The position numbers and the translations under genes are program-made. A stretch of 54,177 nucleotides of DNA, taken from IMG/VR virus record IMGVR_UViG_2162886007_000039, positions 1 to 54,177 of that record; one strand, given 5' to 3'. Every line of letters starts with the position of its first letter. Position 1 is the first letter of the stretch. The notes beneath the pieces were generated by a model, which was not told the DNA's origin, made no database searches, and worked only from the letters and a program-made list of their open reading frames with translations. This document shows positions 22,527 to 51,311 of the stretch, one piece after another. Source of the DNA: a virus.

Positions 22527-24311
22527 TCAGGCATAACTTGGTTCGTGGAGGTAACTTGCTGAATCGAACTCGTCATCCTGCTGTGTCCACGGCTGATCGT
22601 TCACAGCCTGCGAGAATACCGTCGCGACAGCGCCTCCGATTCTTCGACAAAATTCGACTCCTATACAGCAGGCATCCAGATGGTCAGGAGAATGTCCCAT
22701 CCTCTGACGGTATCCCCGAACCGGACGCCCCCGTTCATCAGTCTTACCTTTACTACCCGTTTTCGGTTCTGCACACCACTTACCATTACGGAAAAATGTG
22801 CGACGTGAACACCCCTGAAACGCAGCCTCATTCGATAACCCTCTAATCCCATCAGACAATGCAAATTCCCGAAAAGAAAACAGCAGTTCACTGGCACGGG
22901 TATCATACGCTTCCTTTGCCGTCTTCCCAGTCTCATCAATCGGAAGATCGTCACTCGCGCTCCCTCCCGCTTCGACGCCATGCACGATACCCCATTCCCG
23001 GTCAAAGATGGCTTTTAAGCCGCCACCTTCTCCGCTCGAGTCCAAAGCAAAATCTCGCGGCTTAATACCTCTTTTGCCGCATTCAACTTTGCAGTAATCC
23101 ACTATCTGATAATGGATAGGTCGCTCTTTTTCTTCAGAATCAATCGGCACATCGATCCAATCGCCAAAATCGATCACCCAACGGCGTCTCCCTTTGTCGT
23201 CCAACGTCTCGCCGTATTTGATAAATTGCAGAATCTTTTTGTCGCCACCGTTAAACGCGGGGTCTAACGCGGCGCATTGCCTGAATCCTTCTGTCCACAC
23301 CACCTTATCTTTGCAATGAAACGTGATCAGGATCGAGTCGTCAATCAGCGTCGATTCCAGTCCCATCGCTGGAGGCCAACCGATTGCCTGACTCCAGAAT
23401 GAAGGATCATTCAGGTTGCCCCTGACGGATTTGAGATGGTTAGCTACCCAGTCCCTATTGATCAGCCACGGCAACCGTTTTGTTTCTTCCGGCGAATCGT
23501 CTGCCGGACTTTTGCGGCCATCGAAAAACTGGCAGAGACCGTTGCCTTTTACCGGACCACCGAGAGTTTCCCATTCCTCAGTTTCACCGCGAACAACCGA
23601 ATCCCAACCACCCAAAGGCTCTGACTCGCGACAGAGCGGAGTATTGATGTGTTCTGGATTTCCCATCATCAGGAAATCGAACCTGGGATTTTTAGCCATA
23701 TTTTTTGTGGCTCGCATAATTGCTTCCCGAATGCCTTGTCCTTCATCAAGGATGAGAAGGACTCTTTCGGTATGAATACCGATGAGGTTGTTGATGACCT
23801 CTTCAATACTCCCTTCTTCGACTGCCATACCGAAAACTCCATTCTTGTCGTCACCCTGTCGCCATCGTATACGCGTAACTGAATCCAGCAGTTCTCCGAC
23901 ATAATCTTCCTTCCCTTTCACGATTGATTGATGGTAGTACGCCACGTACGAAAAAATACGCATTCGCAGCATTTTCATTGTCGTAGAACAGCAGATGACG
24001 GCGGTGCGATCGGGCGCCTGCAGCCAGTACTCCAAACCAAATACGCTGGCGTCAACAGTTTTGCCGCTCGCGCCGGGACCAATCCAAGTTAGCCAATGCG
24101 TTCTACACGCACCGCTCAGTCGTCTCTCATTCCATCTGTGCCACTGGTAGTGCGGCCACATGACCTGAATCCGTTCCTTTCGGATTTCGAACGGATCACC
24201 GAACCCCCTGTAAGCGCAGAACTGTAGCTTGTTGAGGTAGGTGAGCTCGCGCCGGATGTTGTACTGACGCTTGATGTCCTTCCAATCTACGAGTGAATCT
24301 AGGTCGATCAT
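22527..24311 (-). CDS. terL: Terminase large subunit
   Basis: 594 aa. ATPase: Walker A GPGASGKT at residues 78-85 and Walker B LLILDE at 185-190. Nuclease: Asp350 (CAALDPAFNGGDKK), Asp424 (FALDSSGEGGG) and Asp543/Asp546 (HSPDHLDACC), giving the RNase-H-like Asp triad. It powers packaging of DNA into the prohead through the portal and cuts concatemers or permuted headfuls. The start overlaps the upstream gene by 4 nt. Followed by the homing endonuclease and the zinc protein. Confidence 0.92.
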   Translation of the reverse strand: MIDLDSLVDWKDIKRQYNIRRELTYLNKLQFCAYRGFGDPFEIRKERIQVMWPHYQWHRWNERRLSGACRTHWLTWIGPGASGKTVDASVFGLEYWLQAPDRTAVICCSTTMKMLRMRIFSYVAYYHQSIVKGKEDYVGELLDSVTRIRWRQGDDKNGVFGMAVEEGSIEEVINNLIGIHTERVLLILDEGQGIREAIMRATKNMAKNPRFDFLMMGNPEHINTPLCRESEPLGGWDSVVRGETEEWETLGGPVKGNGLCQFFDGRKSPADDSPEETKRLPWLINRDWVANHLKSVRGNLNDPSFWSQAIGWPPAMGLESTLIDDSILITFHCKDKVVWTEGFRQCAALDPAFNGGDKKILQFIKYGETLDDKGRRRWVIDFGDWIDVPIDSEEKERPIHYQIVDYCKVECGKRGIKPRDFALDSSGEGGGLKAIFDREWGIVHGVEAGGSASDDLPIDETGKTAKEAYDTRASELLFSFREFALSDGIRGLSNEAAFQGCSRRTFFRNGKWCAEPKTGSKGKTDERGRPVRGYRQRMGHSPDHLDACCIGVEFCRRIGGAVATVFSQAVNDQPWTQQDDEFDSASYLHEPSYA

Positions 24312-42461: not shown

Positions 42462-43286
42462 ATGAGAACACTCACAATAAGCCAAGTCCGAGAAATGCAG
42501 CACGGCGAAATTATCCCGGCTGTCCAAGGCCGAATCAAAAAGGTTTTTGACCAGAAACGATCAGAACCGGGAGCGCCTAATCAGTGGGTGCTGCAAAACT
42601 TTGTCCTACAGGACGACAACGAGGAAATCTATGTTACCTGGGGCGGGGACGACGATCTTTCCACGATCGAAGGGCGTCTAGTCTCGCTTGAATGCTCGGA
42701 AACGAAACACGGTTTGACCGGAGTTAAGCGGGACATTACCACGAAACGAGGTAAGACCTACGAAGGAATCAAGTTGACCGGCTCATGCAAAATCCGAGTG
42801 ATTGAAGAGGCGGTAGCGAGATACGGGCCTCGAACCGAAGTGCTCGATCCTGAAAACATTCCCCCAACAGGAGGCGGGGATTCACGAGTACAAAGCGGAA
42901 AGGACAGCCAGATCGGACGCGACGACGAGGCTGCTAGTTCCCCGCCTCCTACTAAATGGGGAATCCCTGACAAGACAGCAGTCTTGGCAGGAGGATGGAT
43001 AGGAATGGAGTCTCAACTAACTCCTAACGATCCAGACCAGCAACAACTTGATAATATCCTCAAAGCGCGCAAACATCTGATGCAAGCCGCCAATCTCTAC
43101 AATTTGTGCGTGCAATGCGTCGATAGTGCTATCGCGCCAACACTGCCACCAATCGCCAGAACAAGCGAGCAGTTTCAGGCAACTCTAGCGTCAATCTGGA
43201 TTGAGGCTTCATCCAGACGTTCAGAAGACGGAATTAAATGGTTTAGCTACATAGACATGATGCCAACGAAGCCGATTCAAAAATGA
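42462..43286 (+). CDS. OB-fold ssDNA-binding-like protein
   Basis: 274 aa. Residues 15-110 have OB-fold strand order: GEIIPAVQGRIKKVFDQK, QNFVLQDDNEEIYVTWGG, IEGRLVSLECSE, GKTYEGIKLTGSCKI, as in single-strand DNA-binding and RPA-like phage proteins. Residues 125-175 are a disordered linker. C-terminal 90 residues are helical. Likely acts at replication with the initiator and the nucleases near it. Confidence 0.55.
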   Translation: MRTLTISQVREMQHGEIIPAVQGRIKKVFDQKRSEPGAPNQWVLQNFVLQDDNEEIYVTWGGDDDLSTIEGRLVSLECSETKHGLTGVKRDITTKRGKTYEGIKLTGSCKIRVIEEAVARYGPRTEVLDPENIPPTGGGDSRVQSGKDSQIGRDDEAASSPPPTKWGIPDKTAVLAGGWIGMESQLTPNDPDQQQLDNILKARKHLMQAANLYNLCVQCVDSAIAPTLPPIARTSEQFQATLASIWIEASSRRSEDGIKWFSYIDMMPTKPIQK

Positions 43287-47113: not shown

Positions 47114-47142
47114 TTGCGTAATTAAATTCAACAAAGTATGAC
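47114..47142 (+). promoter_or_regulatory. Promoter of the initiator gene
   Basis: TTGCGT (47114-47119), 17-nt spacer, TATGAC (47137-47142), then 10 nt to the ATG at 47153. The -35 overlaps TGCGTA (47115-47120). An in-frame ATG at 47138 lies inside the -10 box, so the 47153 start is preferred. Confidence 0.6.
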
Positions 47143-47152
47143 AGTCAGCATT

Positions 47153-47938
47153 ATGTCTTACTCAAAGCTTTTCTCGTCAATCGTTCACTCATCTCTATGG
47201 ACAGAGCCAGATCATATTCGGCTGCTCTTTGTAACACTTCTCGCAATAGCTGATCGAGAAGGGAACGTTTGGGGTTCTCGACTAGGGCTTGAGAGGCTGG
47301 CAAATATCTCGTGGGATAAAGAGACTGATCGTAATCCGTGGGAGGCGTTGATGTCGCCGGATTCGGACAGTTCGGACCTGCTTCGGAACCCTGAGAACGA
47401 AGGGCGCCGAATCGAGGAGGTCCCCGGTGGCTTCCAAATCCTGAACTTTTTGTATTATCGCGCATTACGCAATGATGACGATCGCCGTGACCAAAACCGT
47501 CTCTCACAGCGGAGGCATAGAGCGAAAAAGTCAGCCGAGAGCCGTAATAAGCCAAAGTCAGCCACCGTCAGCCAAGATCAGCCAAACTCAGCCAGTGTCA
47601 ACCGGTGTCATCCTATCTCAGAAGCAGAGGCAGAAGCAGAGGCATATGTTCTTTCTTCGAAAGAAAGAACCAAAGAACGTTCTGGAGCAGAACGGCCTAA
47701 AGGCTTTTCGTCTCGGAAGAAAGAGTTAATGTCAGAATTGCGAACAATTCTTTCCAAACACGAAATGGCTGAGTTCGGGGACTTGTGGGCGAAACGCGTG
47801 AAACACTGCCCAAAAGCCGTGGCGTACGCAGTCGAAGACTACAAACTTCAGTCTCCAGACAGAAAATCAGCAATCAAAAACCGAGGGGCGTGGCTTACCG
47901 ACAGGCACGCTCGAGCCCTAGTCGAGATAAACCAATGA
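47153..47938 (+). CDS. Replication initiator / replisome organiser (lambda-O-like)
   Basis: 261 aa. The N-terminal MSYSKLFSSIVHSSLWTEPDH... FVTLLAIADREGNVWGSRLG matches phage replication initiators (a winged-helix domain, residues 8-80). The middle (KKSAESRNKPKSATVSQDQPN) is a low-complexity linker encoding the 10-bp DNA repeats at 47558-47613. The C-terminal 90 residues are helical and would bind helicase or its loader. Same overall plan as lambda O: DNA-binding domain, iterons inside the gene, partner domain. It lies 211 nt upstream of the DUF1064 nuclease. Confidence 0.65.
   Translation: MSYSKLFSSIVHSSLWTEPDHIRLLFVTLLAIADREGNVWGSRLGLERLANISWDKETDRNPWEALMSPDSDSSDLLRNPENEGRRIEEVPGGFQILNFLYYRALRNDDDRRDQNRLSQRRHRAKKSAESRNKPKSATVSQDQPNSASVNRCHPISEAEAEAEAYVLSSKERTKERSGAERPKGFSSRKKELMSELRTILSKHEMAEFGDLWAKRVKHCPKAVAYAVEDYKLQSPDRKSAIKNRGAWLTDRHARALVEINQ
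47531..47670 (+). other. Candidate replication origin: 10-bp iterons inside the initiator gene
   Basis: Starting at 47558, TCA(G/A/T)CC recurs every 10 bp exactly (47558, 47568, 47578, 47588, 47598, 47608), with a degenerate next unit at 47618; a further TCAGCC is at 47531. Then a 12-bp unit GAAGCAGAGGCA is repeated twice (47620-47643), and arms GTTCTTTC (47648-47655) and GAAAGAAC (47663-47670) form a hairpin. A 10-bp period is not a codon multiple, which favours DNA-level selection. No A+T-rich element is as clear as in lambda. Confidence 0.6.
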
Positions 47939-48135: not shown

Positions 48136-48591
48136 ATGATAAACCTCCCCAACGCCTCAAAATCGTTCCGAAGGGCTAACCCCGCTATCTTTACCCTCAA
48201 AACAAATTCAAACGCTGTAGAGGCCACTCCTAGCTCGTTTACGGGGCGGTCTATGAACCGTCATGAGAAAGAATTCTCGATAATTCTGGAGTCAGGGAAG
48301 CGAATCGGTGAGATTTCGTGGTGGGGCTACGAGGCAATCAAGCTGCGTTTGGCCGATCGGACGTGGTACACGCCAGACTTCTTCGTTATTCCAACCCATC
48401 TTGAATTCTTCGTTATTCCAACCCATCTTGAAGCTGGATTACGGGTTTCAGATTCCCCGAAGTTCATCGAAATCAAAGGCTTCAAGCGCGATGACGCGAT
48501 GGTCAAGTTCAAGTGCGCTCGAGAGATGTTCCCCTGGGCAAGCTTCGAAATGTGGAGCCGGGAAGGAGGATCATGGAATCGGATTATGTAG
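48136..48591 (+). CDS. DUF1064 family nuclease-like protein
   Basis: 151 aa. IGEISWWGYEAIKLRLADRTWYTPDFFVIP and KFIEIKGFKRDDAMVKFKCA... FPWASFEMW match the phage DUF1064 family (restriction-endonuclease-like fold, PD..EIKG). The 27-nt tandem duplication at 48379-48432 adds nine residues (FFVIPTHLE twice). Its last 15 codons (FEMWSREGGSWNRIM) reappear in altered form at 49067-49111 after a homing endonuclease gene. Confidence 0.65.
   Translation: MINLPNASKSFRRANPAIFTLKTNSNAVEATPSSFTGRSMNRHEKEFSIILESGKRIGEISWWGYEAIKLRLADRTWYTPDFFVIPTHLEFFVIPTHLEAGLRVSDSPKFIEIKGFKRDDAMVKFKCAREMFPWASFEMWSREGGSWNRIM
48379..48432 (+). repeat. Perfect 27-bp tandem duplication
   Basis: Two copies of 27 bp (48379-48405, 48406-48432) within the DUF1064 gene, in frame, each encoding FFVIPTHLE. 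Exact identity implies it is recent. It inserts between the conserved WYTPDF element and the EIKG element. Confidence 0.9.
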
Positions 48592-50309: not shown

Positions 50310-51311
50310 TTATCCGGCTGGCTCAAGGGCGTAGTATTTATGACCGACCACGGCTGGAATCCCTGGAAATATTTCGTATAGGTAGTGAAGCTGTTCGTCA
50401 CCGGAGTTGTGTGTGACCGAAGGATTGACCAACTTCGCCAGACAGTAGGCGGCTTCGCCAGTTTTATTTTCCGGACCGATCTCACCCGTCACGGCAGGAT
50501 AGGCAACGCCAGTCTTCAAATTCGTCAGTTGTCCCTGGCAACCCATCACCACGGGAGGCACCATTTGGCGAACCTGTGGCGGAATCACGATGTACTGGTC
50601 CTTGTCAGCATTTAGGTATTTCCCGCCATTATAGTAGGCCGTCATTTTTTGGTGGTGCGGGTCGCCGTGGGTCGGACCAGTGCCGTCGTTGCAAACATCA
50701 AGATCGCTTATGAACCGCACGTAACTTCCATCCTCGTTACTGTAGATGACAACTGACCCAATAGTTAGAATAGGCGTCAGACCGGTGTCAGGCTTGCGCT
50801 CGACTGACAGTGCTTTACAAATCGCCTTGCAGATTTTATCGAAATGCGATTCGTAGAGTTTCTTGTCGGCATACGAATCAACAAAACAAACTTCGATCAG
50901 GATTGCTGCTTTGTCTGTCTTGTTAAGGAAAAACAAATCGGTGCGCTTTTTCGCCCCACGGTTTTTCAGGCCGGATGCATCACAAATGTTATCGACGACC
51001 GATTGCGCCAACCCCTGCTGAGTCAAATAAAGACACTCGCAGCCCATCGGCTCATCGGTTGTGTCGTAGGCGTTGAAATGTACGGACACGTCGAGGTCGC
51101 GCCGCTGGGAATTGTGAAAGTCAACGATACGATCAAGGTTCTCACTCTGCGACGTGGACACATCATCATTGAAAGTAACACAACCAACGCCAGCAGCCTT
51201 GAGATAACGGGAGACCGCCGCGACCACGCTCCGTGCTTCGTCAACTTCGTTCAAAAATCCGCTTGCTCCGCGAATATATTTCCCGTGGCCTGATGAGAGA
51301 ACAACACTCAA
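50310..51311 (-). CDS. Endolysin: Amidase_3 plus GH75-like (chitosanase-type) domain
   Basis: 333 aa from the TTG at 51311, with GGGAGG nearby and no better start. Residues 1-170 are an N-acetylmuramoyl-L-alanine amidase_3: His9 (SSGHG), Glu22/25 (NEVDEA), His78 (VSVHFNA), Glu140 (ILIEVCF). Residues 182-330 look like a GH75/chitosanase-type domain: YYNGGKYLNADKDQYIVIPP and GEIGPENKTGEAAYCLAKLV (compare DIGPxxKIGEAS). The first domain cuts peptide stems; the second may cut a host glycan or bind it. No signal, so holin is required. Confidence 0.65.
   Translation of the reverse strand: MSVVLSSGHGKYIRGASGFLNEVDEARSVVAAVSRYLKAAGVGCVTFNDDVSTSQSENLDRIVDFHNSQRRDLDVSVHFNAYDTTDEPMGCECLYLTQQGLAQSVVDNICDASGLKNRGAKKRTDLFFLNKTDKAAILIEVCFVDSYADKKLYESHFDKICKAICKALSVERKPDTGLTPILTIGSVVIYSNEDGSYVRFISDLDVCNDGTGPTHGDPHHQKMTAYYNGGKYLNADKDQYIVIPPQVRQMVPPVVMGCQGQLTNLKTGVAYPAVTGEIGPENKTGEAAYCLAKLVNPSVTHNSGDEQLHYLYEIFPGIPAVVGHKYYALEPAG

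Follow-up and report, generated by a model that had tools for sequence, protein, structure and literature searches.

Does the gene for a presumed phage replication initiator also carry, within its own coding sequence, the origin at which that initiator would act? The question is raised by a gene at 47153-47938 (+ strand, 261 amino acids) of a viral record of 54,177 bases, the whole of which is called the window here. A preliminary description of the gene had drawn attention to 10-bp-periodic repeats inside it and had likened it to gene O of phage lambda. Our analysis leads us to consider this locus very probably a theta-type phage replication origin that lies where its own initiator gene encodes the linker, in a lambda-type layout.

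The gene at 47153 and its iterons

The open reading frame opens at 47138, and the ATG at 47153 is favoured as the start, given that homologues align from ..YTKLF in an alignment with 33 relatives. The 47153 protein matched no Pfam or PHROG family. Its N-terminal 126 residues (47153-47530, + strand) were modelled with AlphaFold2 on 85 sequences (pLDDT 88.5), and the label winged-helix-like rests on the modelled helices, after which come a beta-hairpin wing and a long basic helix. Searches of solved structures and folds returned no significant match to this N-domain, which is the presumed iteron binder. The C-terminal domain (47695-47938, + strand) is presumed to recruit a helicase or its loader. 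It is exchangeable across the family, in which C-domains form many unrelated clusters that are swapped freely among relatives; that of the 47153 protein is a singleton, unlike the C-domains of all sampled relatives.

Elsewhere in the window a terminase (22527-24311, - strand), an endolysin (50310-51311, - strand) and HNH genes at 43283 and 44625 (+ strand) are recognisable. The majority of the large window ORFs scanned have no PHROG match, and the window proteins scanned included no recognisable helicase, loader or polymerase. The downstream gene, at 48136-48591, matches a Holliday-junction resolvase profile and contains a perfect, in-frame 27-bp tandem duplication at 48379-48432 (TTCTTCGTTATTCCAACCCATCTTGAA, twice).

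GTCAGCC-like iterons occupy 47530-47617 on the + strand. TCA(G/A/T)CC had been reported to occur six times from 47558 to 47608 at intervals of 10 bp and to fade at 47618, and these coordinates are right: TCAGCC is found at 47558, 47568, 47578 and 47588, TCAACC at 47598 and TCATCC at 47608, in steps of exactly 10 bp, with a fading unit, TCAGAA, at 47618. Further units lie upstream, namely TAAGCC in register at 47548, a weak one at 47538, and TCAGCC at 47531, which is out of register with the others. The self-match at lag 10 (44 of 60) is the top score in the 54-kb window among periods of 7 to 25, and none of 1000 codon shuffles of the gene reached it, the maximum being 36.

Relatives were collected as 147 distinct loci, using queries that consisted of the N-domain only and requiring at least 300 nt downstream. 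Prevalence was re-measured in this way because a first search had been seeded in part with EAEAEAEA; in the loci from that first search, the linkers are alike as DNA and unlike as protein. The A2/A3 queries nevertheless come from loci found partly with that seed, so that array-free clades may be under-sampled, and the 147 loci share descent, so that counts among them are not independent events. The contigs include metagenome-assembled genomes labelled Anaerolineae, Planctomycetota/Phycisphaerae, Verrucomicrobia, Acidobacteria, Chromatiales, Hydrogenedentes, Polyangiaceae and Gemmatimonadota. Named isolated phages are absent among the relatives from two N-domain queries, but do occur among C-domain relatives. 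One 60-kb contig labelled Gemmatimonadota (JAOTVV010000018.1) has two initiator loci, L221 and L222. At another locus (L028, 3638-4636), a domain of ~90 residues is inserted between the initiator N-domain and the iterons; we take it to resemble a GIY-YIG/T5orf172-type nuclease.

Across these relatives the iteron period is near 10.5 bp. Identical 5-mers in the iteron region occur 535 times at lag 10, compared with 14.7 expected from codon shuffles, and are likewise in excess at lags 9 (239 versus 24), 11 (369 versus 14), 21 (537 versus 21) and 32 (188 versus 10). Chained iteron steps comprise 61 of 9, 176 of 10 and 109 of 11 bp, and many loci alternate exactly between 10 and 11. Since steps of 10 and 11 fall in different reading frames, the iterons are not producible by repetition in the protein. 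The comparison of relatives, in which the period of ~10.5 bp is kept while the amino acids vary, thus bears out the earlier proposal of selection at the DNA level. The proposed helical-phase spacing is supported across the family as well, since the autocorrelation has its peaks at lags of 10/11, 21 and 32 bp.

The iteron motif itself varies by clade (GTAACGC, GTCAGCC, GTCAACA, TGTCCC, GTAGAAC, TCCGACA, GTGGACA and others) and tracks the relatedness of the N-domains (Mantel r = 0.26, 0 of 2000 permutations). This correlation fits coevolution of sites with the protein that would bind them, and shared descent alone could yield the same.

A hexamer array and hairpin behind the iterons

A 2 x 12-bp repeat followed by a hairpin had been noted behind the iterons, and both are present. 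The repeat had been framed as GAAGCAGAGGCA (47621-47644); we read it as CAGAAGCAGAGG, twice, at 47619-47642. It had been treated as a detail, yet no other part of the element is so well conserved. We find it to be a degenerate member of a hexamer array of the form (YARNNN)n, consensus CAGAAG, which in the window extends over 47619-47644 (+ strand) as CAGAAG, CAGAGG, CAGAAG, CAGAGG and a final CA, and encodes EAEAEAEA.

At least four consecutive YARNNN units are found in 110 of the 147 relatives, compared with 3 of 147 after codon shuffling, 3 of 147 after base shuffling and 1 of 138 upstream regions. Behind the N-domain, 91 of 147 loci have strict arrays, defined as CAGANN runs of three or more units on either strand; the remaining 708 kb of the same loci contain two. 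Of the 91 strict arrays, 89 have the purine strand pointing away from the iterons in the 5' to 3' direction. The consensus over 653 units is C A G A A G, in which the Y-A-R positions are fixed by the definition of a run, whereas the A that follows (594 of 653 units) and the preference for C, for G and for a final G are not. Measured from where the last iteron begins, the first array unit is mostly 11-12 or 22-23 nt away. At one contig, IMGVR_UViG_3300011438_000021, both ends (the end of L001 and the start of L270) lie inside a hexamer array, which suggests a circular genome whose assembly was broken at the repeat.

These arrays might be viewed as a flexible acidic linker selected as protein, with the DNA repeat a by-product of slippage. 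Slippage does expand repeat tracts, linkers tolerate low complexity, and 106 of the 110 arrays lie in the E/A-type frame. The choice of codons is hard to reconcile with such an account. Alanine is encoded by GCA in 436 of 442 cases within arrays but in only 564 of 2988 in the remainder of the same genes, and exclusively by GCA in the arrays of 77 of 80 genes, a bias that is partly built in, as an in-frame YAR array requires A at the third codon position, and that nonetheless points to selection on DNA. The comparison of 110 runs with 3 in shuffles that retain the same codons is a stricter test. Moreover, the encoded residues change (EA, TD, VD, PD, SE, AK, GS, QK, RS and GR) while YAR persists every 6 nt, and some arrays survive in other frames (QKQK, RSRS, GRGR) or past a stop codon and a few on the opposite strand, with the spacing to the iterons fixed. 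We therefore regard a purely protein-level origin of the repeat as very improbable. As judged from sequence, the excess of YARNNN runs, the varied residues and frames and the clustered spacing indicate that the hexamer array is maintained as DNA, in helical relation to the iterons. The rare opposite-strand arrays (L041, L043, L044 and L050) have the form GCTTCT, read as SASASA, and the iterons of these loci are partly inverted.

Behind the array, the window has a hairpin at 47648-47670 whose 10-bp stem is perfect (GTTCTTTCTT-CGA-AAGAAAGAAC; z = -2.8 versus shuffles), and a second at 47678-47694 (CGTTCTG-GAG-CAGAACG), which resembles a terminator on the - strand. Perfect stems of 6 bp or more lie within the 70 nt behind the array in 41% of loci, compared with 9-10% in shuffles and N-domain segments, and stems of at least 7 bp in 19%, compared with 2-3.5% in controls. 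Hairpins are thus enriched about four-fold after arrays, and their stem sequences differ among loci. Thermodynamically, the array and the next 20 nt form the weakest stretch, with a GC-rich bump 20-39 nt beyond. The window array is about 58% GC, and the family mean dips only to 40-49%; the window array is therefore not AT-rich and is not a classical unwinding element.

Likeness to known origins

The bases of lambda gene O show four iterons, then a purine-biased, A-rich strand (ACACAAAAGACACTATTACAAAAGAAAAAAGAAAAG), then a palindrome (GTCAGAGAATTCTGGCGAATCCTCTGAC). O binds the iterons, and unwinding occurs at the AT-rich tract (PMC3349717, PMC7466680). The lambda origin and the window element both lie within an initiator gene, with iterons inside the reading frame, and have the same order of parts: an N-terminal DNA-binding part (a presumed one in the window protein), iterons, a purine tract, a palindrome (here 47648-47670, and enriched in relatives) and a C-terminal part. 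The purine strand also has the same polarity. They differ in that iterons here are 7 bp at 10/11-bp steps, in contrast to four 18-bp iterons at 20-24 bp, and in that a GC-neutral hexamer repeat, a purine-asymmetric tract, takes the place beside the iterons that a 38-bp AT-rich unwinding tract has in lambda. No P-like loader gene is seen adjoining, the downstream gene being the one that matches the resolvase profile, nor was a loader found among the proteins scanned, and the 47153 protein had no Pfam or PHROG hit that would relate it to O. The analogy with lambda drawn in the preliminary description thus stands for the layout and fails for iteron size and AT-richness. With its layout and purine polarity shared, its iterons and tract composition different and a P-like gene apparently lacking, the window element would work like a lambda-type origin, probably as a variant of that kind rather than as a member of the O family.

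Might the iterons instead be operators at which the protein represses or autoregulates transcription of its own gene, with the array and hairpin as part of that regulation? Winged-helix-like N-domains often belong to repressors, the sites are inside the gene, and promoter-like and terminator-like matches lie nearby, at chance level only. Regulation of this kind leaves unexplained why an array recurs at a fixed distance with a hairpin behind it, why the order of elements is identical in the lambda origin, and why some relatives have DnaD/DnaT-like C-domains; the C-domain of L050 matches proteins adjoining DnaB- or DnaC-like genes. We thus judge an operator function to be quite unlikely. GC skew, proposed earlier as a check on the origin, gives no independent signal and was rejected as evidence, as it changes with gene strand and has no switch at 47.6 kb.

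Other origins offer partial parallels. Iteron plasmid origins likewise have tandem initiator sites adjoining an opening region with repeats of its own, but here the element is intragenic, its iterons are one helical turn apart and not about two, and the window has no excess of DnaA boxes. Among replisome organisers, a distant relative, L041, matches Phage_rep_org_N (PF09681) below the curated cut-off (E = 8e-4) and some relatives have DnaD-like C-domains, whereas neither the window protein nor any other relative tested falls into such a family, and PF09681 has no match at the curated score.

The B. subtilis oriC resembles the array in having a short trinucleotide-phased motif beside duplex sites, and it is conceivable that the locus is an origin whose array is a DnaA-trio-like or DnaD-recognition-like single-stranded element, with host DnaA or a DnaD-like C-domain as its reader. 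One strand of (CAGAAG)n does allow a reading in 3'-GAN-5' triplets, and the complement of the unit, CTTCTG, contains 5'-TnnT-3', which occurs paired on one strand in the DnaD recognition element (PMC10201434). DnaA-trios, which are 3'-[G/A]A[T/N]-5' triplets, however, lead away from DnaA boxes in the 3' to 5' direction, which is the opposite of the polarity in 89 of the 91 strict arrays, and only every second triplet is conserved in the arrays, so that the DnaA-trio reading, attractive by motif, was rejected on both counts. The hexamer period, the phage initiator and the lack of a DnaA-box excess set the element apart further. As to DnaD, TnnT is present in CTTCTG arrays and missing from GCAGAG (CTCTGC) and CAGATA (TATCTG) arrays, and the C-domains are not conserved. 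On balance, recognition of the array by DnaA or DnaD in these forms appears unlikely.

A possible shared reader of the opened strand

The array is not confined to one initiator family. About half of the matches in a scan for exact arrays belong to the 47153-protein family, and the others to unrelated repetitive proteins and to unrelated initiators, behind which the array accompanies the initiators' own iterons (L249, L255, L268, L286 and L290). It is also not universal: in two other initiator families, searched without bias towards the array, the hexamer occurs in 2 of 41 and 0 of 18 members, and we rejected universality on these counts. Both families often carry purine arrays of the GGAAA or GGGAA type after their iterons. 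Stretches of 36 nt that contain 29 or more purines are found in 17 of 17 tested members of one family and in 39% of the other, and never in their N-domains. There may accordingly be a general rule, in which iterons are followed by a purine-strand array and then by a hairpin, with the code of the array varying. DUF4373-like initiators found with a Porphyromonas phage query (L398-L419) have GCAATGC/GCGAACGC-type iterons, then (GGAAA)n arrays and hairpins. At L350, from another initiator family, a stretch that by eye appears HNH-like follows the N-domain directly from position 947 on, where iterons would be expected.

If the locus is an origin, the winged-helix-like N-domain would bind the 7-bp iterons, which are spaced by about one turn of the helix, and form a nucleoprotein complex on one face of the DNA. 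This complex would open the adjoining strand-asymmetric (CAGAAG)n array, whose distance from the last iteron is one or two turns, and the opened array, with the hairpin behind it, could serve as a single-stranded platform for loading the replicative helicase and primase. The exchangeable C-domain would recruit the helicase, directly or through a host loader. Which type of array a locus has depends little on either protein domain. This suggests a shared reader, and the variability of the C-domains speaks against these as the universal reader.

The hexamer element is apparently undescribed, as searches of a library of open-access papers found no earlier description of the repeat, of phage iterons combined with hexamers or purine-rich tracts, or of intragenic origins from metagenomes. 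We propose, tentatively, that (CAGAAG)n represents a class of origin elements that is new and sequence-specific, with a hexanucleotide code that would be read in single-stranded form by a factor other than the iteron binder, such as a host helicase-loading or priming protein. Such an element would be common among uncultivated phages and transferable from one initiator family to another, unrelated one, with purine pentamer codes in its place in others.

The locus provides a clear natural case in which one stretch is both protein code and DNA signal. Iterons at ~10.5 bp, a hexamer array at a fixed distance and a hairpin constitute a DNA-only signature, with which probable origins can be found in unannotated phages, and which makes testable the question of what factor recognises the opened strand at phage origins.
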